From the NCBI GenBank assembly GCA_949358305.1, contig OX442315.1, positions 32,700,427 to 32,764,426 of the forward strand: 64,000 nucleotides of DNA. The letters are read 5' to 3'. Below, one piece after another: positions 5,302 to 53,509 of this stretch (position 1 is its first letter; the number at the start of each line of letters is the position of its first letter). This DNA comes from Strigamia acuminata. Taxonomy: Eukaryota > Arthropoda > Chilopoda > Geophilomorpha > Linotaeniidae. Position numbers and translations under genes: made by a program. The notes beneath the pieces are model-generated. The model saw only the letters and a program-made list of their open reading frames with translations, was not told where the DNA came from and ran no database searches.

Positions 5302-6160
5302 AGGTTGCATTTTATCGAAGTGAACTCTGTGATCAAAGTGTAAAATTGAAAAATGAATTTTCTTGATTATTTTATATAGATATTATAATTAGAAAATTTC
5401 CGATTTTTCTCTATAAATTTACTGTGAAATATCCATTTGTTTTCAAAAAATTCTCATTATCTTTTGGAAATATCTGAATTCGAATTTTTGGATTATTTTG
5501 AAAAAAACTCATTATAATTCCGAATCTCTTACGAAAAATCTATTATGATTTTATTGAGTTTCCCAGAATATTCAGCTATATTCTGGAAAATTTCGAAACC
5601 TTGAATTTTGATCAAAAAACGAATTTGACTAGAAATCCTGCTGACTGAAAAATAAAAAGTTAAAGTATTTTATTTTGCTGGTTAAAAACTTGACCAAGTT
5701 TCTATTGTTCTGTTTTCAATGTTTTTGATTATTATTTTAATCTTTAACAAAGTAAAGAATGTGACAAAGAGAACCACTCACGATGCAGCTCGGAGTAGGT
5801 CATCCAGATGTGACATTGTTGAGAATTTCGGATTAGAAATTATCAGGAATTTGTCAACATCGCCAATCACAGCAGACTGTCTTGACAAAGGAGATTTTCC
5901 GGAAGCTAGTTTGACAACCAATATTCAGCCACACTTGCTTTTCGACAGTGCGACCATCCAGTTGTGCCTTTGTGACCAGTGCCCGTTTGGACCATTCTTG
6001 ACCACGCAATAGGACAGTTTTTCCGAAGCCACTTCAGTTTCAGCAGCTAAGGTTGTATTTTTTCAAATTATTTCTTAGTTTAATATTAAGCGTGTTACAT
6101 TTACGCTAGTTCAGTTAAAATCTTATTTTTCCTTGTTGTACGTGTATTTCTTTGAGTATT
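5302..6160 (+). other. Untranslated leader of gypsy element
   Basis: AT-rich leader between the primer binding site and gag. It has one short ATG-initiated ORF (5719-6012, 97 codons) of no recognisable family. Packaging and dimerisation signals would be expected here but cannot be pinpointed. Confidence 0.6.
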
Positions 6161-8209: not shown

Positions 8210-8240
8210 TTCAGGGGGTTGTTCAAGTTGCCCAACCCCC
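8200..8240 (+). promoter_or_regulatory. -1 programmed ribosomal frameshift signal (gag-pol)
   Basis: Slippery heptamer A AAA AAC at 8200-8206 in the gag frame, followed at once by the gag stop TGA (8207-8209). Seven nt downstream begins a perfect 8-bp stem: GGGGGTTG (8214-8221) pairs with CAACCCCC (8233-8240) around an 11-nt loop. Slipping by -1 continues into the open pol frame (CTG ATT CAG...). Heptamer, 6-8 nt spacer and GC-rich hairpin are the three classic parts. Confidence 0.92.
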
Positions 8241-16107: not shown

Positions 16108-17697
16108 TGTGACGGTTACACTGTCATGCACTTTGTTAGTATAGGACGATTACTTCACCAATAGATGGCGCTGATGCGTTTTAGCGGTAAATTCAAATTT
16201 CGACAATTTTTGAGTGAATAAAATATAAATTACTATTTATATTTTATTCCACTGCAACTTTAGACACTTTTAAATACTTTTGGATGTTTAAAAACTAGTT
16301 GATTTATTTGTCACATAATTCTATTGAATTATGTGCAAACTCTACACCTGGTGAAGTCACCCCCCATCACCCACTGTGAGTTGGACTCCTTTTGGATTAT
16401 AGTCAAAGGGACTTAATCCAAAATGTGTCCTGCGTATCCAGTTCCTGTAGTGGACCTAGTAGAAGACTATGTCCTGAGTATCCACTTCCTATGATCTGGG
16501 ATTGGATGGATTTGACTGCCCAGTGATCCCATTGGATCACTGAACAGCTATTCTCCTCACCGAGTATATATCCCCCTGCAAAACGGATATAGCTCGCTCT
16601 TGTTCTGTTTTTGTTTGATACTGATATTACTTGAGCACATATTATACTTCTCTGCGTTCCGACAATCCGTTGTAGAAATACTTTGTATTTAGTGTAAGTA
16701 TCTAGAGTGGGTAGAAGACTCACAGACACACTGCCCGCCTCTTCATGCCAACATTCCGTTGTAGAAATGTTGTAACTAGAGTGAGTAATTCACAGACACA
16801 TTTAAGTGTAGTATCTAGAGTGGGGTACAACCCACAGACGCACTCCCTCCAGCTTCATGCCAACATTCCGTTGTAGAGTGCAGAATCTAGAGTGGAGTAA
16901 AATTCACAGACGCATTGGTAATGTAGAATCTAGAGTGGAGTATTTATATTTCACAGACGCATTATCAGAGTAATCGACGCGGAGTAATTTCCCGGTTACT
17001 CTCCCGCCAGCCAGGACCGAGTGGAGTAATTTCCCGGCGATGGATAACCTTTCCTGCGAGATATTTCGATTCAATTCGTTATTGGTTTGACGGAACATTT
17101 AAGTCTAACTTAGATGTTGATTGCACTCGGGGCAAAAAATAGCTCGGCGCTATTTTAATATATTTTACTTATTTTCATAGTTTTAGTTAAGTTTGTGACT
17201 CTAAAATATCATGATTAATTCCATAGAATTAATATGAATATTTATTCTCACATTGTTACATCTCGCGGTAATTATTGATTACAACAATTATCTGCGATGC
17301 GATGTGTGTGACGATACAGAAAAGTCAACCGCACCTCTCGGATATAACCCACCCAGCCTAACCATTTACACGCCTTTTAGAACCAAACCCCGGACCATTT
17401 AGAAGCCAAAGCCATTCATAGATGACATCTTTTACGTCACAGCAATAAGACCGTTACAAATTCTTATTGCATGACTGAAGCCTTCAAATGATATTATTTC
17501 AGGGCTTTTGCCAAATAACTGTATAGTTTAACTTATCGTCATTTTAGCCACTTGTAGGCATAGTATTTATATAAGGTTCAAACCGGAATAAATGTTATAT
17601 GTTTTGAGAAAACATCAGGTTTGCATATTTTACATTTTCACACAGATAGTTCACACTTTAGTTTAGCAATTGCTATCTCCAGAAGGTAATCGTCACA
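16108..17697 (+). repeat. 3' LTR of gypsy element
   Basis: 1590 bp, same length as the 5' LTR and the same at all positions compared, at a fixed offset of 12,416. Ends CGTCACA, followed by the CATT target duplication. Confidence 0.97.
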
Positions 17698-21755: not shown

Positions 21756-23480
21756 AGTTAATTCATCCACATGTTATGTTTGTACGAGATAAGAGTCATT
21801 TCTTCGCCTGCAAATACCACTGTTGTCAGCACACTCACGTTTCATTATCGAATATCCAAGACTACCAAAACGATGCAGTGGCGAATGCAGCGCCGGATGG
21901 TGTCGGTTTGTAAAAATAACAAATTCGTTGGTTTTGTATGTTTTTATTTAAAACTTGGGGGAAGTTTTTTGTTTTGTTTTGTTTTTAAAACGATAAATAG
22001 ATAAAATAAATTACACGTTATTTTGTAACGATTATACATCGTTAAAAATAATAAATACGGCAATAAAAAATTATATTTGATCATAAAAAACGAAAAAAAA
22101 TAAAACATTCCATTGAATTTGATGTAAATTTGCGGATTTTTCGTGAATTAAAAATTAATTTCACAATATTTTCAATTTTAATGATGAAAAAATACTGCTA
22201 TAAGCCTAGTTTACAAGTTATTTCACCTTGAAGGATTAACACAAACAGTTAAAAATAAAAATAAACATGAGTACCGTAAGCTTTGTGTGGGAAAGTTTGT
22301 TATTGTTTTCGCATGTCAGCTCTAATAAATAAGTATTTCAAAATTCTGAAAGCTGATCCTGTTTTATTTCTATCATTTAATTTAATTCCTCATCATCCCA
22401 TGCTTATCTGCAGATCTCAACAGGTCGCGCATAACCGCAACACAATGAACCTTTTTTTTTCTTAGCTTATTTCGCTTGGGATATGAAAATGTTGTTATAA
22501 TTGTTCATTGTCAATTTAGGTCATTTCCGTGTAATCCATTGTATCGGCTATTCCCTATCTCAATTATTATCTTAGTCACTTCTTTCTTTTTCTTTTACAA
22601 CTATTTAACTGGATAATAAATGGAAAATAAAATGAATATTCAGAATATAAATTTGAGAAAGTCTTTGTGTTCATTTGCCAGAAGAAAAAATAGAAGATTA
22701 TAAACGCCTGAGTGATAAAAGGAAGAAGTCATTAGGAAGTTGTTATTATTGAATTAAGCCTATTTAGAGGGTCAATATAGAAGCAAATGGTACAGTATAC
22801 TGTTATACCACAATTTTGGTACCTAAAAATCATTTTATAAGTAGTATTCTTCCTTAAATTAACGTTATTTAGCGTTATTTAGGGCGGAGGCCAGTCGTCT
22901 ATTACTCATTATTTATCATCGTGCTGTACATCACCAACAATAATGAAATGACGTCACTTATGAATTGCCTGAAAATGTGTTTGCAGATGCAGCCAACAGC
23001 CATCTCTGAGAGTTATAAATGTTTAAAAAAACGATTCAAAGTGGATTGATTTATAATTTTTTTATTATGTTTATAAACCTTTCTAATAAAATATTTTTTT
23101 TACCCGTATTTTTCGTATTAATAGTAATCTTCTTAACATTTTATCGGCTTAAAATTAGAATTTTAAGTATTCTTTTTTTAATTTGATGTGTGTGGACCTT
23201 GACCACATAAATTATACTCATTTAATAATTCCTTGGCTTGAATAATAATGAGAAATTGGTTAGTTGAAATGTTGCAGTCAGTAATTAAGAAGAAGAAAAG
23301 AAAAATATATGGGAATCAAGGATGATAAGACAGTCCCATCCAGATCTGTGCAGATTTTAAATGGTTTATTTGGTCCTGACCCAAATTTGGGGCATGAACT
23401 TGGTCGATAACCTTCGAAATTGAAATGGGAAAACGAGCAAGGTTAAAAAGTGAAGGTAGACTTTCGGAGAATTGGTGCAA
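21756..23480. other. Intergenic, nothing recognised
   Basis: AT-rich, with short ORFs lacking recognisable domains. Near 22860 there is a short duplicated 'cgttatttag'. No repeat of note. Confidence 0.5.
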
Positions 23481-23576: not shown

Positions 23577-24495
23577 ATGAAACTTCTCGCCATTTTAATT
23601 ACCTGCACTTTGGTGGATAATTTTGTACGAAGTGCACCTGCCAGATCCGCCCTCATTGAAACACTGGACGGTCTAAAAGTAAGAGAAAATATTAATTCAT
23701 TTCACAACAGACATTTTACATTTTTCTTTATATTTAGCCCAAATACTTATTAATGACTGTTGGTCCTAATTACACCATTGACAGAAAACCCAAAGTAATT
23801 ATGCCGTTATTTCGTGTGTATCTGAGTCTAATGATGTTATGATTTTAGTGGATTATTGTGTACAAAAATACGGTGAAAAAAGAATGTATTTTTCGTGAAG
23901 TGGATGACAGCACAGCACATACAATAGCGACTGCAGCTGAAGCTCTTCGTAAAAAGGTATGGAATAATATTTAATTTTTCATGCTTTTTTTTGTCTTCCT
24001 AAAAGATCATACGGTACGATGTTTATTACTTAAAAATTAAATTTAATTAGCGCCATCTAGTAGACAATAACTGAATTTTTTAATCCAAATTTTTGCTTTT
24101 TATTTGTGTTACCAACAAGTGTCTTTAAAATTAGGTTGAAGGTTGTTTGTGGCATTAGGTGGGCCTTTGAATGGACTTTCGGACCTATGAGTCACTGGTA
24201 GTACCAATCCCCAAAAAGTGGTTGATTGGTCTGGGATGTTTTGCATATATGGGGCCCTCAAGGTGTACCTAGATTTTAAAGGCGATCATCTTAGATAAAA
24301 ACAAGTTTGAACTTGTTTGTATGCCAAAGTTGATATATATATATTTCTTTTTATTCACAGTCGTTTCATTTCCCCACACATTTGGACGGTTTATTAATCA
24401 TCAACGACGCTAACGTGTCTTCATTTTGCGACGGATTCTCCACTCGCTATATATCGCCAAAAAATTTCACGTCATCGCAATCCGCGGAGACGTAA
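23577..24495 (+). CDS. Small secreted protein of unknown family
   Basis: Four exons, 23577-23678, 23738-23794, 23849-23956 and 24361-24495, all joined in phase 0 by GT-AG introns, give 133 aa. The N-terminus MKLLAILITCTLVDNFVRSAPA is a plausible signal peptide. The mature part has two cysteines (KKECIF and SFCDGF) that could form one disulfide, and motifs such as PKYLLMTVGPNYT and THLDGLLIINDAN. I do not recognise the family; an avidin or lipocalin relationship was considered and not supported. It lies just upstream of, and in the same orientation as, an avidin-like gene, and has a strong TATA/initiator promoter typical of tissue-restricted secreted products. The third intron (404 nt) is much longer than the others. 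Confidence 0.8.
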
Positions 24496-24840: not shown

Positions 24841-24848
24841 TATATAAG
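24841..24848 (+). promoter_or_regulatory. TATA box of avidin-like gene
   Basis: TATATAAG, 46 nt upstream of the ATG, with a plausible start site near 24870. The convergent avidin-like gene also has a TATA-like run and a CGCAGACA element near its ATG (CCGCAGACA here). Confidence 0.65.
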
Positions 24849-24893: not shown

Positions 24894-25758
24894 ATGATCG
24901 GAAACCTTTTAGTTCTCTTTGTTTTGGCTGCGCACATCGGCAGTGCATTGGTAAGTCCTAAATTCCACTAACCATCTTCACAAAACCGAATTCAAAAACC
25001 AAATTTCTTAATAGACTATTGCAGCAGTCAAACACCATCACCCCCATCCTCAACCTCAAGCGCCTCACTCGCACCATCACCCGCACCCCCATCCTCAACC
25101 GCCTCACTCGCACCATCACTCCCACCCTCAAGCGCCTCACTCGCACCATCACCCACATCCTCACCCGCAGCCTCCAAAACCTGGTTATCCTGTATCCAAA
25201 CCGCCACACCACAGTCACCACGGTCACAGTTCCTGCAAAGAATTGAAAGGATGGTGGGAAAGTGACTCGCATCTTACGATGTACTTAATTGAAGATATTC
25301 CCAAGAGTTTCGTGGTCACTTTTGATGGTTTCTTCTTCAAAAGTGAAGAGAAACGAGTCGCTGCTACGATTATGGGCGCGAAGTCAAAGCTCACTCCCCA
25401 TAGAGACGACGGAACGTTTGGATTTGTTGTGTCGTTCCCCGCAGGTTGTTGACACTAGAATTGAACTTATAGTGTTCTTTATTAATAAATTAACCTAATC
25501 TAGGAGGAACGGCGGTTTGGGTTGGACAATGTTATCATGAACACGGTAAAGATGTTTTGCAGACACTTATGCTTCATCATAGTTATGCGACTTCAAACGA
25601 ATATTGGTTAGCTACGAGGTAAATTTTACGTTTATTTATTGTTGCTGTAGCAATTTTATAATCAAATTTTATTTCTTTCTTTTAGAATTGCGAGCCAGGT
25701 TTGGAAACGAATGCCTCATCCACCTCCATGGTACAATGCTGCTTCTTTTAAACCCTAA
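24894..25758 (+). CDS. Secreted avidin-domain protein with N-terminal His/Pro-rich arm
   Basis: Exons 24894-24950, 25015-25444, 25504-25618 and 25686-25758 (intron phases 0, 1, 2) give 224 aa. Signal peptide MIGNLLVLFVLAAHIGSA (1-18). Residues about 25-80 are a His/Pro/Gln arm of 13-residue units (HHHPHPHPQPPHS), a likely divalent-metal binder. Residues about 88-205 match the avidin beta-barrel: CKELKGWW for the first strand, GTFGFVVSF for the family PTFGFTVNW, WVGQCYHEHGKDVLQT for the TGQC strand, and YWLATRI for DWKATRV. Against chicken avidin, Trp110 is kept and Tyr33 becomes Phe, but Trp70 and Trp97 are replaced (Phe, Met) and Asn12/Ser16 are lost, so biotin affinity may be low. The two Cys expected for the avidin disulfide are present. 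Exon structure is shared with the avidin gene at 27688-33771. Confidence 0.85.
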
Positions 25759-27687
25759 GTAAATAAGATGTTTGCATTATAAAATGTAGATGAAGTAAAT
25801 AAATATTAATACCAGAAATCAAAATTGTATTCGTTTTATTTGTTGTTCATTTACTGGTCATTTACAGTCGAGTTCACTACCACTGGAAAAAAAAGGAAAT
25901 TTTCAAACATTTTCAAGTTGGAAATTGCCCAGAAAAAAAAGTTCTGCAGTACTCGATCATGCAGAATACTTTTCTGCACAGCATGTCGAGTTCTGCAGAA
26001 CTTTATTTCTGGGGTGTATTTAAAAATTTTAAAAATGGAGGGTAGTATGTTTTTTGGTATTGGTAGAAAACTTAAAAACATATTGGAAATATATTGGAAA
26101 TATATTGTGAAATTTCAAATTTTCAAAATTGAAAATGCTTGTAAAGTTATTGTAAAAAAAATCATGGAAATGGTCTCTTTCCTAGATTGTAAATACGTTG
26201 AGAAAAAACTAATTTTTAATTGATTGTAAATCTAATTTCCCAAGTTGTAAAATCGATCTACCTTAATATTTACAATTCTTTACAAGTGAGTAAATCTGCT
26301 TGTTTTCCAGTGTACAACACGGTTTATGCATACATACAGTGATGTGCAGTACAGTGAAGCAAAATAGGTTGGTTTGACTGTAGAAGGAAAGGAAGTTGTT
26401 TAGTTGTGATTTTGCTGTCTAAAAAATCTTTGGCATATTAGAATGTAAGGAAATAATTGTGTAACCAATGTTTGTTTCAAAATAAAAATTACAAGAAAAC
26501 AAATTTTTTTTCCAAATATATTTTAGCCCAAACAAAACAAGAGAAATATTATTGTGATTGTCGTATGAAACGAATTTGCTACAGGCACTTAAGGTGTGTC
26601 ACCAAGAAAACTAAAGATTAACAAAAAGAAAAACTGATATAAAAATTATTTAGTAGAATAAAATTGTTTTATGCTTAAATATTTATTGTTTATTTTTTAA
26701 TTTCCTCTGCAGTAAACCTAGGCTATTGTCAGGGCAACCAGCCTAAAGCTCCTATGCTGAACAAGAACTGCATCCTGCCTGACTCTAAAACGCCCTCTAA
26801 AAATAAATAAAAATGTTTAAATACGACCGTTTTGTGCGAAATGCTAGAAAACTAAAATCGGTATTTTTCTGTTTACAACTTTACAGCTGTAGTTAGTGAA
26901 TTTGAAACAAATTAATGTGCACCATAAGCTGATATTGTAATTGCACAAAGGGCTGGCTGGAGAGTCTCGGGAAGTCTTGGGAAAAACACTGCGAGAGGTG
27001 TCTACAGTGTTAGCATCTACAATATCTATTGCAAATCCTAGCACACACAGTATATTCTTTGGTTGAGTATACAGAATATCTTTCTGCCTTGTTCGGATTC
27101 CCTCTCTGCAGTCACATAACAGGGTTCCATCAATTCATAGATGATCAATTTGTTGCCGATCCCGTGCCCACGAGTTTTCTAGCAACACTCGCTCTCCAAC
27201 TGTTTTAAAAGAGACGTCGAAGATTTGAACCTGCCAACGATTTGGATCCATTGACAAAAAACACCACTTTTGAATTTGTTAGATTTTGGATTGTTTGATT
27301 GATAATCCATTAATTTGTTTTATGCTGTTTAGTCAACTGGGCTGTTTCATCTAAATGTTGGCGAAATGGCTTAAACGAATTAAACCGACCACCAAGTGAC
27401 TACAACAAATTTTTGGCTTTTTAATGTGGTGGGACCTTAAGCAACATCAGTGTACACATATACAATCCAGTAAACCCTCTTTGGGTCCCTAATTGCTTGA
27501 GCTGTCTACTTTTTAAGTAATTTTATTACAAAGGTACCTTAAATTTAATTATTCATACCAGAATCCATACCAGAAACACATGACAAAAACAATATATGCA
27601 ATTTAAAACTTTATTTAAGACAGTAAAATATTTTATACAATGATTAGTTTAAATTAAATCGTAATTCCTAAAGTTTTAAGAAACATT
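25759..27687. other. Spacer between the two convergent avidin-like genes
   Basis: Polyadenylation-type aataaa occurs at about 25797 for the left gene. The rest is AT-rich without a supported gene. A short minus ORF at 26844-27044 and a less AT-rich stretch at about 26700-27260 might be old transposon sequence, but no family is recognisable. Confidence 0.5.
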
Positions 27688-30600
27688 TTATCCTTGAGGA
27701 CGGCTATGTCCTCCATGCCCATGCCCGTCTTTTGAGTGACTGTGTCCTCCTTGCCCATGCCCTTCTTTTGAGTGACTGTGTCCTCCGTGTCCATGCCCTT
27801 CATTTGGATGACTGTGTCCTCCGTGTCCATGCCCTTCATTTGGATGACTGTGTCCTCCATGTCCGTGTCCTCCTTTACCTTCTTGAGGGCGACTTACACC
27901 GTGACCTGGACGGTGAACCTCATGTCCACCATGTCCGGATTTCTGGCGACCATCCTTGTCTGAACTTGATGTTGAACCATGCCCGCCGAGTCCTAGCCCG
28001 CCAACTCCAACAATAGCCAGATTATGATTATGCTGGTCATTATGCTTGCTGTCTCGAGATTCATAATCATTTAAACTTTTCTCTGCGTGTTTTTCTGCAT
28101 GGTCGTGCTTGTGATGTTTGTCCTTCTCTGCATCATTGCTCCAACGGTGTCCCTGACCTTCTCTCTCAATTTCTAATGAATCAATATCGATGGCTCCATG
28201 GGGCACATGATACTTCTCGTCCTTATTAGTCACTTTCATTCGGTTCTTATCGTAATGCCCATCGTCGTGATGCCTTTCACGTTCGTGAGATTCATCTTTT
28301 GTTTTATCCTCTTCCTCATCTTTACGCTCGCGTCGATCATGCTCCTTTTCTCTGTGATCGGTTGTTTTGTGGTCATCATATTCTTTAATTGAAACAGCTT
28401 TGTCCCCGTCAGCAGCTTCTACTTGGCCACCAAACTCAATATCACCACTCCCATCGCGATCACCTTTTCCTCCATGATGATGCTGATGACTACGGTCCTT
28501 TCCGCCAGATCCATAACCACCATTTTGCCATGATCCTTGACCATCTTGATCACTTGATTTCCATGATTCCTGGTCATCTTCGTCATTGCTGCTTCCTTGA
28601 GATCTGTGTCCACCATGACCACTATGTCCATGCCCATGTCCCCCATGATCACTTTTTCCCCAAGATCCAGACCCACCATGATCACCTTTTCCTCCGTGTC
28701 CACCATGTCCATGTCCATGCCCACCGTGATCACCTTTTCCTATAGATCCATGTTTATCGTGATCACCTTTATGATCATCATATTCTTTAATTGAAACAGC
28801 TTTGTCCCCGTCAGCAACTTCTACGTGGCCACCAAACTCAATATCGCCATCATGATCACTTTTTCCCCAAGATCCAGACCCACCACGGTCATCTTTTCCT
28901 CCTTGTCCACCATGTCCATGTCCATGCCCACTGTGATGACCTTTTTCTATAGATCCATGTTCATCGTGATCACTTTTTCTTGAAGATTCATGAGCCTCGT
29001 GGTCTTTTTCTCCTCTGGATTTTGACTCGTCATGATCACTTTTTCCCCAAGATCCAGACACACCACGGTCATCTTTTCCTCCGTGTCCACCATGTCCATG
29101 TCCATGCCCACCGTGATGACCTTTTCCTATAGATCCATGTTCATCGTGATCACTTTTTCTGGAGGATTCATGAGCCTCGTGGTCTTTTTCTCCCCTGGAT
29201 TTTGCCTCATCATGATCACTTTTTCCCCAAGATCCAGACACACCACGGTCATCTTTTCCTCCGTGTCCACCATGTCCATGGCCATGCCCACCGTGATGAT
29301 CTTTTCCTATAGATACATGTTCATCGTGATCACTTTTTCTGGAAGATTCATGAGCCTCGTGGTCTTTTTCTCCTCTGGATTTTGACTCATCATGATCACT
29401 TTTTCCCCAAGATCCAGACACACCACGGTCATCTTTTCCGCCGTGTCCACCATGTCCATGTCCATGCCCACCGTGATGATCTTTTCCTATAGATACATGT
29501 TCATCGTGATCACTTTTTCTGGAAGATTCATGAGCCTCGTGGTCTTTTTCTCCTTTGGATTTTGACTCATCATGATCACTTTTTCCCCAAGATCCAGACA
29601 CACCACGGTCATCTTTTCCTCCGTGTCCACCATGTCCATGTCCATGCCCACCGTGATGATCTTTTCCTATAGATACATGTTCATCGTGATCACTTTTTCT
29701 GGAAGATTCATGAGCCTCGTGGTCTTTTTCTCCTTTGGATTTTGACTCATCATGATCACTTTTTCCCCAAGATCCAGACACACCACGGTCATCTTTTCCT
29801 CCTTGTCCACCATGTCCATGTCCATGCCCACCGTGATGATCTTTTCCTATAGATACATGTTCATCGTGATCACTTTTTCTGGAAGATTCATGAGCCTCGT
29901 GGTCTTTTTCTCCTTTGGATTTTGACTCATCATGATCACTTTTTCCCCAAGATCCAGACACACCACGGTCATCTTTTCCTCCGTGTCCACCATGTCCATG
30001 TCCATGCCCACCGTGATGATCTTTTCCTATAGATACATGTTCATCGTGATCACTTTTTCTGGAAGATTCATGAGCCTCGTGGTCTTTTTCTCCTTTGGAT
30101 TTTGACTCATCATGATCACTTTTTCCCCAAGATCCAGACACCCCACGGTCATCTTTTCCTCCGTGTCCACCATGTCCATGTCCATGCCCACCGTGATGAT
30201 CTTTTCCTATAGATACATGTTCATCGTGATCACTTTTTCTGGAAGATTCATGAGCGTTGTGGTCTTTTTCTCCTTTGGATTTTGACTCATCATGATCACT
30301 TTTTCCCCAAGATCCAGACACACCACGGTCATCTTTTCCTCCGTGTCCACCATGTCCATGTCCATGCCCACCGTGATGATCTTTTCCTATAGATACATGT
30401 TCATCGTGATCACTTTTTCTGGAAGATTCATGAGCCTCGTGGTCTTTTTCTCCTTTGGATTTTGACTCATCATGATCACTTTTTCCCCAAGATCCAGACA
30501 CCCCACGGTCATCTTTTCCTCCGTGTCCACCATGTCCATGTCCATGCCCACCGTGATGATCTTTTCCTATAGATACATGTTCATCGTGATCACTTTTTCT

Positions 30601-33600
30601 GGAAGATTCATGAGCCTCGTGGTCTTTTTCTCCCCTGTACTTTGACTCATCATGATCACTTTTTCCCCAAGATCCAGACCAACCATGATCACCTTTTTCT
30701 CCATGTCCACCATGTCCATGCCCACCATAATCACCTTTTCCTATAGATCCATGTTTATTGTGATCACCTTTATGATCATCATATTCTTTAATTGAAACAG
30801 CTTTGTCTCCGTCAGCAACTTCTACGTTGCCACCAAACTCAATATCGCCATCATGATCACTTTTTCCCCAAGATCCAGACCCACCATGGTCATCTTTTCC
30901 TCCGTGTCCACCGTGTCCATGTCCATGCCCCCCATGATCACTTTTTCCTATTGAGCTTCGTTCATCATGATCACTTTTTCTCGAAGATTCATGTGCCTCG
31001 TGGTCTTTTTCTCCCCAAGATTTAGTCTCATCATGATCACTTTTTCCCCAAGATCCAGAGCCACCACGATCATCTTTTCCTCCGTGTCCTCCATGTCCAT
31101 GTCCATGCCCACCATGATCACCTTTTCCTATTGATCCATGTTCCTCATGAACACTTTTTCTCGAAGATTCGTGATCCTCATGGTCTTTTTCTACCCAGGA
31201 TTTTTCCTCATCGTGATAACTTTCTCTCCAAGAGCCAGATCCACCGTGGTCTTTTCCACCATGTTTAGAATGACCAATTCCAACTAGCTCACTGAAAATA
31301 TCATCATCAATAGCATTGACAGGACCTTTATGGGGGTGATGATGGTGATCATCTGACCCACCACTGCCATGATGGGGATGATTGTTGTGACCACCAGTGT
31401 CAGGATGTGGTTGACCGTGTGAACCACTGCCGTGATGGGGGTGACCGTATGAACCACTGCCGTGATGGGGGTGACCATGTGAACCACCGCCGTGATGGGG
31501 GTGACCGTGTGAACCACCATGTCCTGGCCCAAGCCCATCGCCAATCTCTTTTCCACTTTTCCACGCACCTCCATCTTCATATCCATGCCGACCATGATCA
31601 CCTTTTCCTATTGATCCATGTTCTTCATGATCACTTTTTTTTGAAGATTTGTGAGCTTCGTGGTCTTTTTCTCCCCAAGATTTTTCCTCATCGTGATAAC
31701 TTTCTCTCCAAGAGTCAGACCCATCGTGGTCTTTTCCGCCATGTTTAGGATGACCAATTCCAACTAATTCTCTGACAATATGATCAACAATACCATTGAC
31801 AGGTCCTTTATGGGGGTGATGGTGGTGATCATCTGTTCCACCACTGCCATGATGGGGGTAATCATTTCTACCATCAGTGCCATGATGTGGGTGACCATGT
31901 GAACCACCATGCCCATGTCCATCGCCAATCTCTTTTCCACTTTTCCAAGCATCTCCATCTCCATATCCATGCCAACCATGATCACCTTTTCCTATTGATC
32001 CATGTTCTTCATGATCACTTTTTCTTGAAGATTTGTGACCCTCATGGTCTTTTTCTCCCCAAGATTTTTCCTCATCGTGAGAACTTTCTCTCCAAGAGTC
32101 AGACCCATCGTGGTCTTTTCCGCCATATTTAGGATGACCAATTCCAACTAATTCTCTGACAATATGATCAACAATACCATTGACAGGAACTTTATGGGGG
32201 TGATGGTGGTGATCACCAAATCCATCTAGTGGATGTCCTAATTCTCTGCCAAATACGTCACCATGCCTATGTTTATCCCCAACATCTCCAAAGTCAATAT
32301 ACCCCTTATCGAATTCATCCGAAATATCGTCTGAACTTTTATGGGGGTAATGGTGGTGATCATCTGACCAACCACTGCCATGATGGGGACGTGGTGTGCC
32401 AGGATGTGGTTGACCGTGTGGCCCGCTGCCGTGATGGGGGTAATCATTTGTACCACCAGTACCGGGATGGGGGTGACCGTGTGAACCACCAGTGCCGTGA
32501 TGATGAGGATGACCGTGTGAACCACCACTGCCGGGATGGGGACGTGGTGTGCCAGGATGTGGTTGACCGTGTGGACCGCTGCCGTGATGGGGGTAATCAT
32601 TTGTACCACCAGTACCGGGATGGGGGTGACCGTGTGAACCACCAGTGCCGTGATGATGAGGATGACCGTGTGAACCACCACTGCCGGGATGGGGATGACT
32701 GTGTGAACCACCAGTACCGGGATGATGAGGATGACCGTGTGAACCATCACTGCTGGGATGGGGGTGACCGTTTGACCCACCACTGCCGGGATGATGGTGA
32801 TGGTGTGTACCGTCAGTGCCGTGATGAGGATGATTGTGTGAACCACTAGCTTCGTGTCCGACTATAAACGGGTTAGGCTCATGCTCGTAGAAATCCCCAG
32901 GACCGTCACGTTGAGGAGGGGCTTGAAACAAGTCTTCGTCTTTTTCAGTTTTAAAAAATGCTTTATCATCTTTTGGTTGATTAAAATCTGGATTGTTCTT
33001 ATCATCGCCTATGAAAAAGCCATTCTTTTCAAAGTAGAAGTGCAAATTAGGAGAATCGTGATCGGATTGCGAGTGACCGTGCGGACGATATGTCGGCCGA
33101 TCTCTTCTCATCACATCGTCTTGACCAGTTCTATAAAAAAAATAAACAGACAATTAGAAATTTCACTAAAAATATCATCTAGTAAGCACACAAATTAATA
33201 ATTCTTCTAAATTTTCACCTTTTCGATAACCATTCTTCAGCTGGCTTGTGTTCGGGTCGTTTCAAAACCCATTTAGTCCTTAATTCTTCGTGTCCTTTAA
33301 TCACGTAACACTGCCCGACCCAAGCAAAGATGGTGCCTGTCAAACGAATTTAATTTTCAGAAAAATAAAAAAATTAATAGAAAAAATAATAATGACCAAC
33401 CTGAAGTAAAAACTGCTACGAAACCAAATGTGCTGTTCAATTCTCCTCTGCTCTTAGAACCAAAAAGCCATCCTTTAGCTCCGTATGGAATGGTGAAGTC
33501 TTTCCGCTCCATCGTGACAGTTCCGTCTAACCTTTGCGAGAATCCTCTTACAGGCGCTTCTACAATCTCTAATTTCCATCCCACTTGGTCGTACCAAGTT

Positions 33601-33771
33601 CCAGTTAAACTACATAGTTCTTTCTTACATCTCTACAGTTTAAAATTTAAAAAAAAATTACAACTAAAATATATAAAATCTTCATTTTTTACTTACGGCA
33701 TTTGCAGCTGAAAATAAGCCTAACACTAAAGCGTAAAGAAATAACACACATTTAATGTTTAATGCTGCCAT
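27688..33771 (-). CDS. Giant secreted protein: avidin domain fused to an 1800-residue His/Gly/Asp-rich repetitive tail
   Basis: Minus-strand exons 33697-33771, 33401-33632, 33219-33336 and 27688-33130 give 5868 nt, that is 1955 aa, with introns in phases 0, 1, 2 at the same places as in the avidin gene at 24894-25758. Signal peptide MAALNIKCVLFLYALVLG...ANA (1-25). Avidin domain at about 26-140: CSLTGTWYDQVGW, GTVTMER, STFGFVAVF, WVGQCYVIKG, LRTKWVLKR and EEWLSKR. Trp10, Trp97, Leu99 and Trp110 of avidin are kept; Asn12 to Asp, Ser16 to Trp, Tyr33 to Val and Trp70 to Phe are changes. The rest is repetitive and hydrophilic: proximal HPHPGTGGSHGHPHH-type units, a middle of 60-residue units (SDHDESKSKGEKDHEAHE then GGHGHGHGGHGGKDDRG), and 12-residue GHGHGGHSHPNE units at the end. 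The tail is probably disordered, strongly metal-binding and possibly mineral- or glycan-associated; that is inference. No transmembrane segment follows the signal peptide, so an extracellular matrix, egg or secretion role is likely. Confidence 0.88.
27697..27870 (-). repeat. 36-bp coding repeats at the C-terminus of the giant protein
   Basis: Five copies of a 12-residue unit, GHGHGGHSHPNE or GHGQGGHSHSKE, close the protein before SRPQG and the stop. Confidence 0.9.
28851..30850 (-). repeat. In-frame 180-bp coding repeat array
   Basis: About eleven copies of a 180-bp unit (60 aa) in perfect register within the giant avidin-tail exon. Copies from 29040 to 30660 differ by only a few bases each; outer copies are more diverged, as expected from unequal exchange or gene conversion in the middle. 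The reading frame is kept in all copies. Confidence 0.95.
32380..32850 (-). repeat. Gly/His/Pro coding repeats after the avidin domain
   Basis: Tandem units of 45-60 bp encoding GSGGSHGHPHHHGTGG-type sequence. A block of about 180 bp is duplicated nearly exactly (about 32390-32535 and 32545-32720). Confidence 0.85.
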
Positions 33772-33816: not shown

Positions 33817-33827
33817 ATATATATATA
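33817..33827 (-). promoter_or_regulatory. TATA-like element of giant avidin gene
   Basis: TATATATATAT run on the minus strand, 46 nt upstream of the ATG (33771), with a GACGCAGACATT sequence between, resembling the CCGCAGACA just before the ATG of the other avidin gene. Confidence 0.55.
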
Positions 33828-39458: not shown

Positions 39459-42400
39459 ATGGTAAAACCAAAACCAACAGCCAAGAGGTTAGGAAATGCA
39501 AATTAAAAATTTCGAGAGTGAAACAGTAAAATATTTTTCCTTTCAACTCAGAGCTGCGAGTAAAAAGACTAAGGGATCCCAGAAGTCAACGCCACGAGTT
39601 TTACGCGATTCAACGGTGAAGAAAACGAACGTTTCCCGCGGAGAGCCGGACGAGCCAATCACAGCGTGAGTCGTTAAATTGAATCTATATTTTCATTTCC
39701 ATATTTCAGTAAAACGAATCGTATTTTTCAGTGAAAGCAACAAGCGCAAAATGGAAGAAGAGGAACCGCCACCGGTAAAAATACCAACCAAAAGACGGAA
39801 GAAAGAAAATGGGTAGTTATATAAAGGATAAATCCGATGTAAAGCCCCCAAAAACAAGTGTTATAACGTTTTTCTGTGTCAAATATAGCGCAAATAAGTC
39901 AACAAAAAACATGGATACGTCCAACGATCAAGTAACGAATGTTAAAGGCGAAAAAGAAAATTTAAAGTGAGTTAAAACGTGCAAAATGTGTCATAAATTG
40001 CATTTATTATAAGAGATACTTCACAGCGGTGAGAAAAACGACGTTTTGAAAAAGGCAATCAACTCCAAACCTCAAATCACTCGATGTACCGAATGTTCTC
40101 AACTCCTGGACGAAAAAATAGTTATTTTTCCTGGGGATAGTGCCAATGCGGTATGTTTATTTGCTTTATTTTAACCTAAATATTATTCTAATACTTTTAA
40201 ATTCAACAGGAAGATGAAGTATTGGCTTTATGTAACGAAACTTTGACTCTGGAAGGCCAAGAAATGGATGAGTACGCAGAAACATCAATTCCGGACTACA
40301 AACTCACGCAGTTTACGGTTTACGATGTAAATACGCACGTTTGCCCATTCGATACAGGATTGATTGAGAAAAATCGCAAATTATATCTCAGTGGCGTTAT
40401 TAAACCCGTTTACGATGACGATCCCAGTCCCGAAGGTAATTAAAATCCACAAATTTAATTATTCGTTTAATGAAAAATTTTCTTATGAAAAGGTGGCGTT
40501 CTTGCGAAAAAGATCGGACCCATTGTCGAATGGTGGGTTGCAGGTTACGACGGTGGTAATGATGTCTTGGTAGGAGTTTCGACGGGTAAATTATTCCAAA
40601 ACGATTGAATCGAGAGAATATTTTGTAATATTTATTATTTCAGAACTTGCGTTTTACTACTTGATGACACCCAGTGACATCTATGCGCCATATATGAAAT
40701 CGATTATGGAGAAAACTTATTTAACTAAATTAGTGATTGAATTTCTGAATAGCGACGAAACAGGGACGTATGAAGATTTAATTAACAAAATACAGGTTTT
40801 TTTTTTAAGGGTTTACGTTGTTTTTCCTCGTTTTTTAATCGATTTGTTTTGATTTTTTAGGCTACGCCGCTTAAAGGTTACGACAGCTTTACAGAAGAAA
40901 GTTTGTTACGTTATGCGCAATTTATCGTCGAACAGGTGGATAGTTACGACCACGCGGCGGATGCAGATGAGAATTTATTGAATAATACGGAATGCATGAA
41001 GGCTCTGATTAATTTGGCGGGTGTTTCTCGGGAGGAAAAGTTAGTTTTTGAATTAATGATTTAGTTTGATGTCTAATTAATTAATTTTTATTGATTTTTT
41101 TGTGTTTTTATTTAGGAAATACATTCGTGCTCGCATTCGTAACGTTCAAAAGAAACCTAAAGATACGAAAGCGACTACGACACCTTTGGTTAGAGAGCTT
41201 TTTGAATTGATGTTTAAAGACCAAATTGAAACCGCGCCAAAATCGTCCGTTCGACGGAAAAGATGCGGAGTTTGCGAGGTTTGAAGAAGAAAAAATAATA
41301 TAAAAGTTTAGAAATAATTTATTTTTTTATTTTATAGGGCTGTCAGCGACCTGATTGCGGTGAGTGCAGTAATTGCAAAAACATGATCAAGTTTGGCGGC
41401 ACGGGAACCGTGAAACAAGTGTGCAAACAAAGAATCTGTAAGAATTTGGGTTACGTTGAAAATGGAGCCGAAGCGTCCGATGAAGAGACGGAAGAACCAA
41501 TCGTTGATGAAAATGTGAAACCTAAAAGAGAGTTTACGATACCGAAAGAAAAGCCGAAAGTGTCGTGGGTCGGTGAAAAAATCGAATCAAATAAGAAGAA
41601 AACTTTCTACAATGCGGCTAAAATCAATAAGAAAATAGTTACGTATTTTGTCTCTAACATTTTGGTTTTGTTTAATTAATTTTGTAAATTTTTTTTCAGT
41701 ATAATGTTGGTGATTGCGTTTTGGTGTACCCAAGTTCCCCAGATGTGCCAATGTTTATTGCTAAAATCATTTACATGTTTGAAGACAATTTTACAAAGAA
41801 AAAGATATTTCATGCTCACTGGTTTTGGTAATAATAACAATAAAGAAAATATTAATTTTTATATTTATTATTAATTTTTTTTTTAATTTTCTTTCGATTT
41901 AGTCGCTGCACAGACACCGTTTTAGGCGAAACTAGTAGTGACAACGAAGTCTTTCTTGTGGATGAATGCGAAAACTCACTATTGGATATCATTAAATCGA
42001 AATGCGAAATCGTTTATAAACCGCCACCAGCCAATTGGGCGTATTTAGGGGGCGAAGACGTGGCCTTGCAGAAGGAAAATTACGACGAGAAGAAATTCTT
42101 TTACAAATTGTTTTATCAGCGAATGAGTGCTCGGTTCGAGGACCCACCGAGAGAGTACATTGACGTAGACGACAGAGAGGATAAGAAATGTGATTTTTGT
42201 CCCTGTTGTGAGCGGATAAACACATTTAGAAACGTAAGAAAAATTAAAAATATAATAAAAGAATACGTAATTTTAAAAAATAATTATTTATTATTAGCTC
42301 GAGATGCTGCATCTTGGAAATGTTTACAACGAACATGGCAAAGATGTGTTTTACGAGTCCGTTAAGTGGTACAATGTCAAATACAGTATGGGGTCGCAAG

Positions 42401-45400
42401 TTTTTCTTTCACCTGACGCATTTAAATTCAAAGCCAAAACACCAGTGCTGCCTGAAAAAGAAATCATCGAAAAGGTGAAATAAACGTTTTAAAAAAAATT
42501 TAATTATATGTTTATGTATTGTTTTAAGGTGGACGAGGACGTTTATCCGGAATATTACCGCAAAAATAAAGAACGAGGGGAATATGTGGACTTGCAAGAG
42601 CCGTTTAAGATCGGATACATCGAGAAAATTTACTGCGCTGCGAGTAAAAACGGTTTAGTGAATTCGAGCGACGTAAAGTTATTGGTAAAGAAATTTTACC
42701 GGCCTGAAAACACTCATCGCGGCATGGCTGCGAGTGCGTTTGCCGATTTTAATTTATTATATTGGAGCGATGAAGGTAAATAAGTGAATTAATGGTATTA
42801 AATTTAAAATTTTGCTGATTATTTTTAAAATTTTTGATAGAGGCTGTAGTGAATTTGTCAAGTGTTCAAGGAAAGTGCCACGTTGCGTATTGCAATGATC
42901 CAGCCAAAACCGAAGCTTTGTGGGATTCCGATGAACATCATTTCCACTTTAATGAGGTAAATTTGGAACCTGTTTTGTATTTCTCACAAAATGTAGAAAA
43001 TTTGGAGGAAATATTTAATTATTTACTTATTCTAACAGGCGTACAGCGCAGAATCAAAGACATTTGAAGACCCACCATTCAAAGCGCAGCTGTTAGGAAG
43101 TCGTGGAAAAGTATTATTTGATTTTTGAAGTTAAAAAATTGATTGAATTTATTGAAGAATTTAATTTTATCAGGGTAAAGGAAAAGGAAAAGGGAAGAAA
43201 ATCGAAGACATTCAACAAGACCCATCGCCGAAAGTGCTTAATTTTGAACGGCTGAAAGCTATGGATGTTTTTGCCGGCTGCGGAGGTTTATCCGAAGGAT
43301 TCCATCAGTCGGGAGTGTGCGACACGAGGTGGGCGATCGAATGCGACGAAATGGCGGCGCAAGCTTTCCGATTAAACAATCCAGACTGCACTGTTTTCAA
43401 CCAGGATTGCAATGATCTTCTCAGAATGGTCATTGAGGTAATATTGATAGAAAATTTGTGAAAATTTGTTAAAAATTTATTAAAAATTGTTAGAATTTGT
43501 TAACATTTGTTAGAATTTGTTAAAATTTGTTAGAATTTGTTAAAATTTGTTAGAATTTGTTAAAATTTGTTAGAATTTGTTAGAATTTGTTAAAATTTGT
43601 TAGAATTTGTTAAAATTTGTTAGAATTTGTTAAAATTTGTTAGAATTTGTTAAAATTTGTTAGAATTTGTTAAAATTTGTTAGAATTTGTTAAAATTTGT
43701 TAGAATTTGTTAAAATTTGTTAAAATTTGTTGCAATTTGTTAGAATTTGTTGCAATTTGTTAGAATTTGTTAGAATTTATTACAATTTGTTACTATATGT
43801 TACAATTTGTTGCAATTTGTTATAATTTATTACAATTTGTTGAAATTTGTTGAAATTTACTGTTTTTCCTTTTTTAAATTTTAGGGTCAAACGAAAAACA
43901 ACCAAGGCCAGACATTGCCACTCAAGGGGGATATAGAGCTACTCTGCGGCGGTCCACCTTGCCAAGGCTTTAGCGGCATGAATCGATTCACAGCCGGTCA
44001 ATGCTCGCAGTTTAAGAATTCGCTGATTGTTTCTTACCTCAGCTTCTGCGACTTTTATCGACCGAAATTTTTCCTTTTGGAAAACGTGAGAAATTTTGTG
44101 TCGTACAAGCAGAACATGATTCTTAAGTTGACCCTTTCTTGTCTGGTTCGCATGGGTTATCAATGCACTTTTGGCGTTCTTCAGGCAGGAAATTACGGCG
44201 TACCCCAATCGCGAAGACGGTGAATTTTATAATTTAGTTACAAATTAAATTTTTTAAATTAATTAATTTTTTTTTTTAAATTTTTATATCAACTAGTGCG
44301 TTTATATTGGCCGCAGCACCCGGCGAAAAATTACCCAATTTCCCCGAACCCAGACACGTTTTTAAACACAGCTCTTGCCAGGTTTTCGTAGACGACAGCA
44401 AGTACGTAACGAACGTTAAATGGCACGAATCGGCGCCGTATCGTCGTATAACCGTCCGCGACAGTCTTTCCGACTTGCCCGCCATTGAAAATGGCGCCAA
44501 AATCGACGAAATATGCTACACGCCCGAAAACCAGTCGCATTTCCAGAAAATCGTAACTTAAAATGAATGATTTTAATCTCGACGTTCTTAAAAAATATTT
44601 TTTTCAAAAACAGTTGCGGAAGAAGAACGTGACGCGTGTGATTCACGACCACGTGTGCAAAGAAATGAGACCGCTGGTCGCGGCTCGCATACAATACATT
44701 CCGTGCCAACCTTTCGCCGATTGGAGAGATTTACCCAACATCGAAATAACGTTATCGGATGGCAGCAAGACTAAAAAATTGTTATTAATTTATTTTTATT
44801 TTTATTTTTAAAAAAAAAAACAATAAATTAAAATCTTAACTTTTAGGGAATACGGCTTCGATGATGGAAAAAACGGACGTTCGTCGACCGGTGCACTGAG
44901 GGGAGTTTGCCGATGCGCCGAAGCCAAAGTGTTCAAAAAATGCGACCCACAGCACCGACACCCCCAAGACAGCACAATCATACCGTGGTGCCTGCCGCAT
45001 ACGAGTAACAGACACAATAATTGGGCCGGACTGTACGGCCGTTTGGATCCCGACGCTCATTTTAAGACGACTGTTACGAACCCCGAACCTATGGGCAAAC
45101 AAGTGAGATTTTTCTGTAGATGAAAGTGGGATTTGAATTAATTTATTTATGTTAATTTTTAGGGTAAAGTTCTTCATCCTGATCAGCACCGAGTGATAAG
45201 TGTGAGGGAGTGCGCGCGATCGCAAGGGTTTCCAGACGCTTATAAGTTTTATGGGAACACGCTGGATCGACATAAACAAGTCGGGAATGCGGTCCCACCG
45301 CCACTGGCTCGCGAGATTGGGTTGGAGATCAGGAAATGTCTGAAGTCGTGTGTGGAGAGGAGTGAGGAATGCGATAAAAGTGCGAGTGACAAGGGGATCT

Positions 45401-45441
45401 CGATGGATTCGCTAGCAAAGCCAGGTTCGTCCAAGTTTTAA
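39459..45441 (+). CDS. DNMT1: DNA (cytosine-5)-methyltransferase 1
   Basis: Copies CpG methylation onto the new strand after replication, in the nucleus. I could place 23 exons: 39459-39487, 39552-39665, 39732-39812, 39889-39966, 40027-40150, 40210-40435, 40493-40585, 40644-40795, 40861-41039, 41116-41278, 41338-41637, 41700-41827, 41903-42233, 42298-42474, 42529-42775, 42841-42956, 43039-43110, 43174-43437, 43885-44219, 44297-44552, 44614-44780, 44847-45102 and 45163-45441. They sum to 4167 nt, that is 1388 aa, in frame. Domains: basic N-terminus; RFTS (about 110-330, with [11 protein letters not shown]); CXXC zinc finger (about 408-450, [18 protein letters not shown]); two BAH domains (about 510-870); Gly-Lys linker (GKGKGKGKK); methyltransferase (about 885-1375) with motif [14 protein letters not shown], catalytic [13 protein letters not shown] motif [22 protein letters not shown] and [15 protein letters not shown]. 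All key residues are present. It is shorter at the N-terminus than the vertebrate enzyme, with no clear DMAP1-binding domain. Confidence 0.98.
43480..43858. repeat. Intronic minisatellite, 10/20-bp unit
   Basis: Alternating ttagaatttg and ttaaaatttg ten-mers between DNMT1 exons 18 and 19, about 38 ten-mers, becoming diverged at the right end (ttgcaatttg, ttacaatttg). Confidence 0.96.
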
Positions 45442-46099
45442 AGACAATCAACGATTTTTTTTAAACATATTCTTTTCGACAAATTTTATATCGTGTTTTT
45501 AGATTTTAAGTTTATGCACAAATGTTAAAATATTTTCTTGTATTCTAAAAAAAAGTTTGATGATGAATGATTCGTAATAAACATACTTTTTTGAAATTGT
45601 GCTGGTTTATCACATTTCTTTTTTCTACAATCAATAGATGCGTTCGTAAAGTAATTTAGACAGGTCAGTCCAAAAAGTTTGGAATAAGCCAAATTTTTTG
45701 AGCACATGCGTTTTGTACGGTCGAAAGATCCGTGTTATGGCCATTCGTATAAATGTTCAAGTGACCATGTATATTTTTGCGCAGATAAGATGCGGCTAAT
45801 GTAGTTGATAAACTATTAATTTTCGTATTCATTTATTTATTTTTGTTGGTGATTGAAATGTATACAATGGAGATTGTTCGATTGAATATTAATACAGCGT
45901 GATTTGTTTTTTTATTGTTTCGGACAATTATATACATACAATTATAACTGATGGGTGATGACTTAATTTTTATTTAAAGGAAAGTTTTGTTGACTGCAAA
46001 TTTAATATAAAGACTCTGACAACGTTCATTTGAACATGCTGGCCCAGAAATGAACCTTGGAACGAAATCGATTTTTTTTCCGTAATTACGTTCAAAAAA
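45442..46099. other. Spacer after DNMT1 with a dispersed repeat
   Basis: Contains 'ttgttcgattgaatattaat' (about 45887-45906) and following sequence that recurs beside the RPB1 fragment at about 53156-53190 and, in part, right of the copia element at about 57885. No gene. Confidence 0.55.
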
Positions 46100-46645
46100 G
46101 TGAAATTATTGTCCAGCGTAATCGCAGCAATAAGAATTGATTATCTCTACAAGGCGTTTGTGGAGTTAGGACTTTTACCGGTTCTCACAGATTGGCTCTC
46201 GCCGCTTCCCAACGGCAGTTTGCCGTCTTTGAATATAAGGCAAGACATTCTTGATGTTTTGGAATTTTATCCAAGTTCGCTGCTCAAAGACAGTGTACTT
46301 GTACAAGCAGTCGCATATTTACGTGATCACCCGAGAGAAACGTATGACAATCAGGTTAGGGCCGGAGAACTAGTTGATAAATGGTCAAGAACTAGAGAAG
46401 AGACGAAACGAAAATTACAAGAAGATGAAGAAAGAATAAGAAAACGGTTCAAATTGAACGTTGAGACCAAGCAGGTTAAACGCGGCAGTAAGAAACGACG
46501 GACAGCCAAACAAGAGACGGACTCACTTTTCCTGAGCGCTGCTAAGGTCTTAAAGAATATGGACGCACCAATTAAACTTGTGATCTACGGAGATGGAGAA
46601 CATGATTTCTCCGATGAATTTGATTTTCGCGGGGATTTATTATAG
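46100..46645 (+). pseudogene. IWS1/TFIIS N-terminal-domain fragment, copy 1
   Basis: About 181 codons open to TAG 46645 with no in-frame ATG; the frame is open back to about 46034. It encodes a TFIIS N-terminal (LW) type helical domain: FVELGLLPVLTDWLSPLPNG, SLPSLNIRQDIL, AVAYLRDHPRET and AGELVDKWSR, matching Spn1/IWS1, the RNA polymerase II elongation factor partner of Spt6. It is followed by a Lys/Arg/Glu-rich tail and an acidic end (DGEHDFSDEFD). Intact IWS1 is much longer at the N-terminus and has a different C-terminus, so this is a fragment or retrocopy, although it could be an exon of an unseen gene. The coding frame is clean, which argues for youth or residual selection. Confidence 0.6.
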
Positions 46646-46988: not shown

Positions 46989-47596
46989 TTAGTCGCCAAT
47001 TGAACCCGTTCAAGTATTTATTTTTTGTGAATTAATTTTTAGCTGCTTACACTTCTACATTTTTTACTGCCGCGAGTTTAACTCCATTAACAGGCCGACA
47101 GTTTTCTCACCGTATCATCATCCTTTTTTCTCATTTGGGCTTTAAATCAGGGCCGCATCATTTTACATGTTGTGTTGGACGAAATTGACCGCCATTTGGG
47201 ACAAACTGAGATGATCTGTCTTTTTTGAAGTACCGTTAAGTGATTAAATTGTGCTGCGGTTTTCATTAGAGCTTCAATTCCCGACGGTTCTAACAACCGA
47301 TGTTGAGTCATATGTAATACTCCTATAAACATTCCATTTCTTCGATCAACTTCAAATATCAAACCGCATATGCATCTGCATCGTCAACTTTGAGAACTCG
47401 CAACATCTTCCTGGACTTCAACAAAACACCCACGAATATCGAGTTTCTGCAGATTAGGCAAATTTGTTCGCACATACTGGCTATAAACAAATTGTTGTAT
47501 AGGAATGTTGCACGCAGCAAGGACATGTTAAACATCGTCCAATAAAGCTCTCAACATATTGCAGTCAATATTTGGTTACAAAGATTACAGAAATTA

Positions 47597-48211
47597 TTGC
47601 CCAGCGTAATCGCAGAAATAAGAATTGATAGTCTCAGTAAGGCGTTTGTGGAGTTAGGACTTTTACCAGTTCTCACCGATTGGCTCTCGCCGCTTCCCAA
47701 CGGCTGTTTGCCGTCTTTGAATATAAGGCGAGACATTCTATATGAGTTGTTATTTTATCCTATCTCGCTGCTCAAAGACAGTGTAATTGTACAAGCAGTC
47801 GCATATTTACGTGATCACCCGAGAGAAACGAAAGAAAATCAGGCCAGGGCCGGAGAACTAGTTGATATATGGTCAAAAACCATTTTAAATCCAGAAGTCA
47901 ATTCTGTTTCTAGAGAAGAGACGAAAAAACGAAAATTACAAGAAGAAGGAGAAACAAGAAAACGGCCCAAACTCAACGTTGAGACCAAGCAGGTTAAACG
48001 CAGCAGTTGGGAACTGACAGTTCAGAAAAGAATCTTGCGCGCTTTTCATTCTAACAGACAAAAGTCTATTTGCACAGCCAAATGCAAGCCAGTTAAACAA
48101 GAGACAGCACTTTCCCTCGTCTTAAAGAATATTGACGCATCTATTGCATCTGATGTCAACGGAGAATTTGATTTCTTCGAAGAATTTGATTCTCGCGGAG
48201 ATTTATTATAG
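47597..48211 (+). pseudogene. IWS1/TFIIS N-terminal-domain fragment, copy 2
   Basis: About 204 codons from an upstream-open frame (first codon TTG, no ATG) to TAG. It has the same domain as copy 1 (FVELGLLPVLTDWLSPLPNG, DILYELLFYPISLLKDS, AGELVDIWSK) and a longer tail with an extra segment (TILNPEVNSVS and WELTVQKRILRAFHS). It has diverged from copy 1 at scattered codons while keeping the frame. Same reading as copy 1: an intronless partial copy of an IWS1-like gene, function unknown. Confidence 0.6.
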
Positions 48212-53402: not shown

Positions 53403-53509
53403 GTCTGGTTTCTTTGCAAGATAGAAACGTTCCATTTTGGCGACGATTTGTGGAGAATTTGCGGTGAAAGAAGAATTGAAAAACAAGGCGTAACGATCGA
53501 ACAAGGAAG

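Follow-up and report, generated by a model that had tools for sequence, protein, structure and literature searches.

A predicted centipede gene joining an avidin-like barrel to a giant histidine-rich repeat tail

We describe here gene A, a predicted gene of the centipede Strigamia acuminata in which an avidin-like barrel is followed by a giant His-rich tail, a combination that is a variant within the avidin family, whose members are mostly small proteins. The gene lies in a stretch of 64,000 nucleotides (the window) near gene B, an avidin-like gene with a His-rich arm of its own, and the genome holds a third, plain avidin, gene C. Judged from sequence, it is probable that one of these copies (C) binds biotin and that the other two (A and B) do not. 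The three genes offer a natural three-way comparison of avidin folds within one genome and, with one probable binder beside two probable non-binders, non-biotin roles of avidin folds become testable. For the gene A product we favour a role as a secreted extracellular scaffold, in which the barrel would oligomerise or anchor a His polymer that responds to pH, binds metal or can be cross-linked, and we give this reading an even chance of being correct.

Predicted structure of gene A

The preliminary description of this DNA had read four exons amounting to 1955 codons in frame, and the gene prediction agrees with it, with GT-AG borders at all three predicted introns, intron phases of 0/1/2 and one terminal stop (Table 1). 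The N-terminus, MAALNIKCVLFLYALVLGLFSAANA, is hydrophobic and, by eye only, signal-peptide-like. One sense frame of exon 4 runs open through 1813 codons, and each of the other five frames contains 35 to 200 stops; since 200 base shuffles of this exon gave ORFs of at most 172 codons, the long reading frame is not due to chance. The architecture of an avidin domain with a His-rich tail is well supported at the level of the sequence.

Table 1. Features of the three avidin-like genes (positions in the window unless a genomic sequence is named)
Feature	Position	Strand	Remarks
Gene A, four predicted exons, 5868 nt, 1955 codons + stop	33771-27688	-	
Gene A TATA-like element TATATATA, starting at 33827, ~50 nt before the ATG	33820..33827	-	consensus match only
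Gene A exon 1 (75 nt), putative signal peptide of 25 codons	33697..33771	-	donor GTAAGT, reading frame; signal peptide by eye
Gene A exon 2, start of avidin-like barrel, 232 nt	33401..33632	-	
Gene A exon 3 (118 nt), from the GQC motif to the counterpart of W110	33219..33336	-	
Gene A exon 4, final avidin strand and ~1800-residue tail, no stop between, 5443 nt	27688..33130	-	
Pfam Avidin span in gene A, broken by introns 2 and 3	33115..33611	-	coordinates by arithmetic from residues
SHGHPH(H)GTGG-type repeats, ~11 residues, ~residues 232-430 of gene A	32266..32862	-	limits by eye
60-residue unit array SWGKSDHDESKS...GHGHGHGGHGGKDDRGVSG and two longer variant units, residues 775-1630	28666..31233	-	
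C-terminal 12-residue repeats, GHGHGGHSHSKE type	27707..27871	-	period 36, 4.6 copies, 92% matches
Gene A AATAAA polyadenylation signal	27610..27615	-	consensus match only
Gene B, 224 residues	24894..25758	+	exons 24894-24950, 25015-25444, 25504-25618, 25686-25758
Gene B TATA-like element TATATAAG, ~50 nt before the ATG	24841..24848	+	consensus match only
Gene B His/Pro-rich repeats, between putative signal peptide and avidin domain	25033..25174	+	
Gene C, plain avidin, 148 residues (L001)	C4:13947282-13946635	-	Pfam Avidin 1.3e-26

An alternative is that the avidin exons and the tail do not form one protein, either because an alternative short last exon is used or because the tail is a separate gene; short last exons have indeed been described for avidins (PMC3811995, PMC1082904). 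However, exon 4 begins with the final avidin strand, aligned with those of B and C, although its share of the Pfam match is short (residues 142-147), and it continues through all 1813 codons without a stop. The tail contains two Met and no signal-like start, its repeats bear the marks of coding selection described below, and an AATAAA signal is found 72 nt past the stop. The shared exon 4, the scarcity of Met in the tail and the position of this signal make separate avidin and tail transcripts unlikely, and the alternative as a whole seems to us most improbable.

Avidin domain and its relatives

The preliminary description had claimed an avidin domain fused to the tail and had proposed an HMM search as a check. 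This search bears out the avidin domain: Pfam Avidin (PF01382) matches gene A residues 33-147 with 51.2 bits against a cut-off of 24 (E 2e-13). Using phmmer against the PDB, 30 distinct sequences were obtained at E up to 0.001, zebavidin matching residues 31-147 (E 5.9e-9); the top row is 2c4i (7.8e-11), but here three weaker pieces are added together. In an alignment of A, B, C, chicken avidin and zebavidin, the C4 and C83 columns (chicken numbering) are Cys in all five sequences, corresponding to Cys 32 and 112 of gene A, and W110 is likewise kept in all five. The exon lengths are 75/232/118/5443 nt in A, 57/430/115/73 nt in B and 60/217/121/49 nt in C, with phases 0/1/2 in all three genes, and zebrafish avidin is reported to have four exons and three introns (87/211/120/42 as printed, a sum that is not whole codons; PMC3811995). 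Its profile match, its four exons with introns at the usual places and its cysteine pair put predicted gene A in the avidin family.

With vertebrate avidins (chicken avidin, BBP-A and zebavidin) gene A shares the HMM match, the four exons, the cysteine pair, the GQC motif and W110; it differs from these small proteins in that most of the biotin contacts are lost and in that exon 4 measures 5443 nt, compared with 42 bp in zebrafish (PMC3811995). Chicken BBP-B, which also belongs to the avidin family, has a fourth exon of increased length and is predicted to carry a C-terminal extension; this extension is, however, a short predicted helix and not a giant His-rich repeat (PMC1082904). In bacteria, extended avidins have been described that combine an avidin with an aspartic peptidase or with a C-terminal extension of ~150 residues; unlike the tail of gene A these extensions are short or enzymatic, the proteins are predicted biotin binders, and the available text of the source describes no His-rich repeats in them (PMC8033661). 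Among the open-access papers searched, no report of an arthropod avidin or of a His-tailed avidin was found.

W110 has been listed at the 1-2 subunit interface of avidin and M96, V115 and I117 as 1-3 interface positions (PMC1082904). In gene A the latter three are K, T and Q, respectively, which makes a classic tetramer doubtful; the barrel may form a dimer or another assembly.

Gene B, which the preliminary description had not recognised, is convergent with gene A at a distance of 1.9 kb. Its predicted product has a signal-like start, then a His/Pro-rich arm (of the 74 residues from the start of exon 2, 26 are His), and then the avidin domain (Pfam Avidin 5e-9, 37 bits). Just upstream of gene B, at 23577-24495 (+), a secreted-looking protein of 133 residues can be spliced by eye from four exons; it gave no Pfam match at E 0.01.

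Gene C lies on another contig, outside the window to which the preliminary description was confined, and its final intron is GC-AG. A Pfam family search of the genome found gene C alone and missed A and B themselves, their domains being intron-split and diverged, and it follows that more copies of this kind may exist. The genome searches with A and B returned their own exons, C weakly and weak matches on C10, C1 and C8 (E 2.0-5.4), and a local profile gave E 2.2 for L009 and E 2.3 for L014, with L008 not listed. The three genome searches (Pfam family, gene A and gene B queries) brought up no other avidin gene. A weak match (E 0.2) is also present in the window at 22735-22878. In a protein database, the first 243 residues of gene A retrieved 196 candidates, none at E 0.01, and gene C retrieved 3, none at E 0.001; since even a plain avidin had no matches there, the database seems poor in animal proteins and we make no claim of absence for other animals.

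An unrooted tree of the five aligned sequences sets A and B apart from C, chicken avidin and zebavidin (support 75/82), on branches of 3.94 and 4.27 for A and B versus 0.29 for C; pairwise identity is 37/120 between A and B and 36/125 between A and C. The tree gives weak support to the A and B grouping, on very long branches. The simplest history, also weakly supported, would be that C is the old avidin and that A and B are a duplicated and remodelled pair.

Biotin pocket

Biotin contacts were compared in the five-sequence alignment at 18 positions, with chicken avidin as the reference. The positions were chosen in advance and later turned out to be 18 of the 20 BBP-A residues within 4 Å of biotin, the two omitted being A39 and E102, of which E102 is not conserved in avidin (PMC1831776). 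Identity with chicken avidin is seen at 12/18 contacts in zebavidin, 10/18 in C, 4/18 in A and 2/18 in B, some contact positions of the last two being unsure because their identity to the other aligned sequences is just 24-31%. As zebavidin binds biotin (PMC3811995), values of 10-12/18 are compatible with binding, and those of A and B are well below, which makes biotin binding by these two predicted proteins unlikely. In chicken avidin, the changes W110K and W70R together almost abolish biotin binding; the same source cautions that the consequences of residue changes of this kind for binding are difficult to foresee (PMC8033661).

Gene A retains S73, W97, L99 and W110. The polar contacts N12, S16 and T77 are altered to D, W and F, respectively, W70 is also F, and Y33 is lost, being an alignment gap or, if aligned by eye without a gap, V. 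The preliminary description had proposed an extracellular scaffold that could combine biotin sequestration with metal or mineral binding; the scaffold idea finds support in the sequence, whereas the 4/18 contacts speak against the sequestration. If gene A did bind biotin or a derivative, it could act as a defensive or nutritional vitamin trap in which the tail fixes the barrel in a matrix, and the PF01382 match would agree with this, as would the presence of W97, L99 and W110 and two changes shared with zebavidin, F79 to W and N118 to D. The altered N12, S16, W70 and T77 and the loss of Y33, the 2/18 contacts of B and the existence of a separate copy with 10/18 contacts are difficult to reconcile with such a trap, which we consider very unlikely.

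Most of the gene A pocket residues are substituted and not deleted. This would suit a secretion from a gland, for example saliva, glue or an egg coat, in which the barrel binds a non-biotin ligand in a remodelled pocket and the tail is the carrier, and the long branches of A and B, taken as a sign of a changed role, can be counted in the same direction. We regard a secretion of this type as quite unlikely.

Histidine-rich tail

The tail, which had been put at about 1800 repetitive residues rich in His, Gly, Asp, Ser and Lys, is confirmed by its open frame, by its coding selection and by its composition: it has 1814 residues past residue 141, with 21.8% G, 17.7% H, 11.5% D, 11.4% S and 8.3% K. 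It contains 321 His, no Cys and only two Met, and 83 HXH and 33 GHGHG sites are present in the whole protein. The tail opens with an acidic, less repetitive stretch, and the repeat arrays of Table 1 follow. No Pfam family, and no chitin-binding domain, was matched at E up to 10 in the 1813-residue tail frame; the Rebers and Riddiford (R&R) motif of CPR cuticular proteins, which we assume from its name to be present in BmorCPR152, was likewise absent from the tail (Pfam, E up to 10), and Pfam gave no EGF or cystatin match, either for residues 1-243 or for the tail. When 111 repeat residues were used to search the genome, 14/14 matches among the best candidates lay inside gene A.

There are 17 motif starts in the gene A tail, and twelve equal-length units of 60 residues were compared, the units at residues 487, 615, 895, 1562 and 1631 being omitted on account of their differing lengths. 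The twelve units contain 51 distinct variants, of which 24 are synonymous (36.7 sites) and 27 replacement (143.3 sites; binomial P 1.7e-5). Over all pairs pN/pS is 0.33, and third codon positions carry 28/51 variants (P 0.0012). Both P values are rough, because tandem copies do not vary independently and the calculation takes no account of transition bias. In three 40-codon comparisons among units 487, 615 and 775, pN (0.03-0.05) is also lower than pS (0.10-0.25). Purifying (coding) selection on the gene A repeats is thereby shown at the level of the sequence.

For residues 151-1955 a net charge of -112 was computed at pH 7.5 and of +137 at pH 5.5, and metal binding is plausible from the composition of the tail. 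Histidine-rich glycoprotein of vertebrates and the Nereis jaw protein Nvjp-1 are both His-rich and metal-binding; neither, to our knowledge, has an avidin domain, and histidine-rich glycoprotein combines its His-rich region with cystatin domains, for which gene A has no match. The metal binding of histidine-rich glycoprotein raises the question of whether gene A encodes a soluble metal carrier or sink, whose tail would bind Zn, Cu or Ni in the haemolymph, the gut or the saliva, with the avidin barrel as a passive carrier or docking domain. The His, HXH and GHGHG counts and the lack of Cys in the tail are what such a protein might show, but the size and the long, near-identical tandem arrays suit a structural polymer at least equally, and the Pro/Gln/His arm of gene B is of quite different composition. 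We therefore rate the metal carrier or sink as unlikely.

Possible role of the gene A product

The scaffold that we favour would be made from one secreted protein, in which the avidin-like barrel would no longer be a biotin trap and would instead serve as the oligomerisation or anchoring module of the tail, a long His-rich polyampholyte that is probably disordered. Joined through their barrels, several such tails would form a multivalent scaffold, which might be condensed by pH through the charge switch of the tail, or alternatively by divalent metal, or by quinones that couple covalently to the His side chains, as happens in insect cuticle; an extracellular material, hardened or gel-like, would result. 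For gene B a role as partner or as parallel component is probable. Secretion, disorder, oligomerisation, hardening chemistry, tissue and the pairing of A with B are elements that we infer. This reading is preferred because the barrel retains its fold motifs, cysteine pair and interface Trp but not most of its biotin contacts, and because there are precedents in fibropellins and in His-rich insect proteins; taken together, these features suggest that an avidin barrel may have been reused to build extracellular material. The selection on the repeats, the location of all listed repeat matches inside gene A and the charge switch also count in its favour. Against it stand the altered 1-3 interface positions, the failure to match a chitin-binding or other Pfam domain in the tail and the weakly supported grouping of A with B.

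In the sea urchin fibropellins EGF repeats are joined to a C-terminal avidin domain, whereas in gene A the avidin domain is N-terminal and no EGF repeat was matched. A fibropellin paper by Yanai reportedly, to go by its title, holds that the avidin domain was adopted for oligomerisation. Fibropellins are stated not to bind biotin, and they represent a known non-binding avidin domain in a mosaic protein (PMC8033661). The second precedent comes from His-rich cuticle proteins: BmorCPR152 contains 45% His and forms films, TcCP30 contains 21% His in 171 residues and is without the R&R motif, and laccase 2 cross-linking is reported for both, in the case of TcCP30 in beetle cuticle (PMC8062583, PMC4440208). 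The predicted gene A product resembles these low-complexity, His-rich, secreted proteins in kind and not by descent, and differs from them in its avidin domain, as none is described for them in the available text of these sources.

A wider version of the scaffold, which we put forward as doubtful, is a two-gene biomaterial in which A, with its giant C-terminal His tail, and B, with its N-terminal His/Pro arm, would co-assemble through avidin-type interfaces into an extracellular network set by pH or metal, the avidin fold being the natural cross-link node of a His-rich polymer. Should the scaffold reading be true, gene A would encode a pH- or metal-responsive natural polymer with avidin nodes.

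Surroundings in the window and genome

On the plus strand of the window, DNMT1-like DNA methyltransferase exons are found at 40201-45438, with BAH identified by Pfam and with what we take to be DNMT1-type catalytic and CXXC motifs in the ORFs. Two adjoining ORFs that are alike by eye follow at 46034-46642 and 47546-48208 (+), and both of them match Med26 (TFIIS helical bundle). The ORFs at 6119-12486 and 53480-57574 (+) presumably belong to gypsy-like and copia-like retroelements, respectively, and the first of these elements is situated between two arrays of 112-bp period with equal scores (4271-4526 and 16687-16942).

Elsewhere in the genome, three nuclear-receptor loci (L019, L022 and L025) out of nine translated loci have DNA-binding domains that are presumably HNF4-like and may represent a family expansion. 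An ultraspiracle/RXR ligand domain matches 1z5x (Bemisia) with 332.8 bits, scarcely more than the RXR-alpha chains of vertebrates (331.5 bits) and more than 2nxx (Tribolium, 302.5 bits), a result that does not point to any one arthropod order. A GroEL search for a symbiont gave three pieces at one C4 site and one weak piece on C1, none above the cut-off, and no symbiont was identified. Among exact 30-base telomere patterns, TTAGG, which points to an arthropod and away from beetles with TCAGG telomeres, accounts for 18,704 overlapping matches in the genome, including the start of C1, versus 38 for TCAGG.
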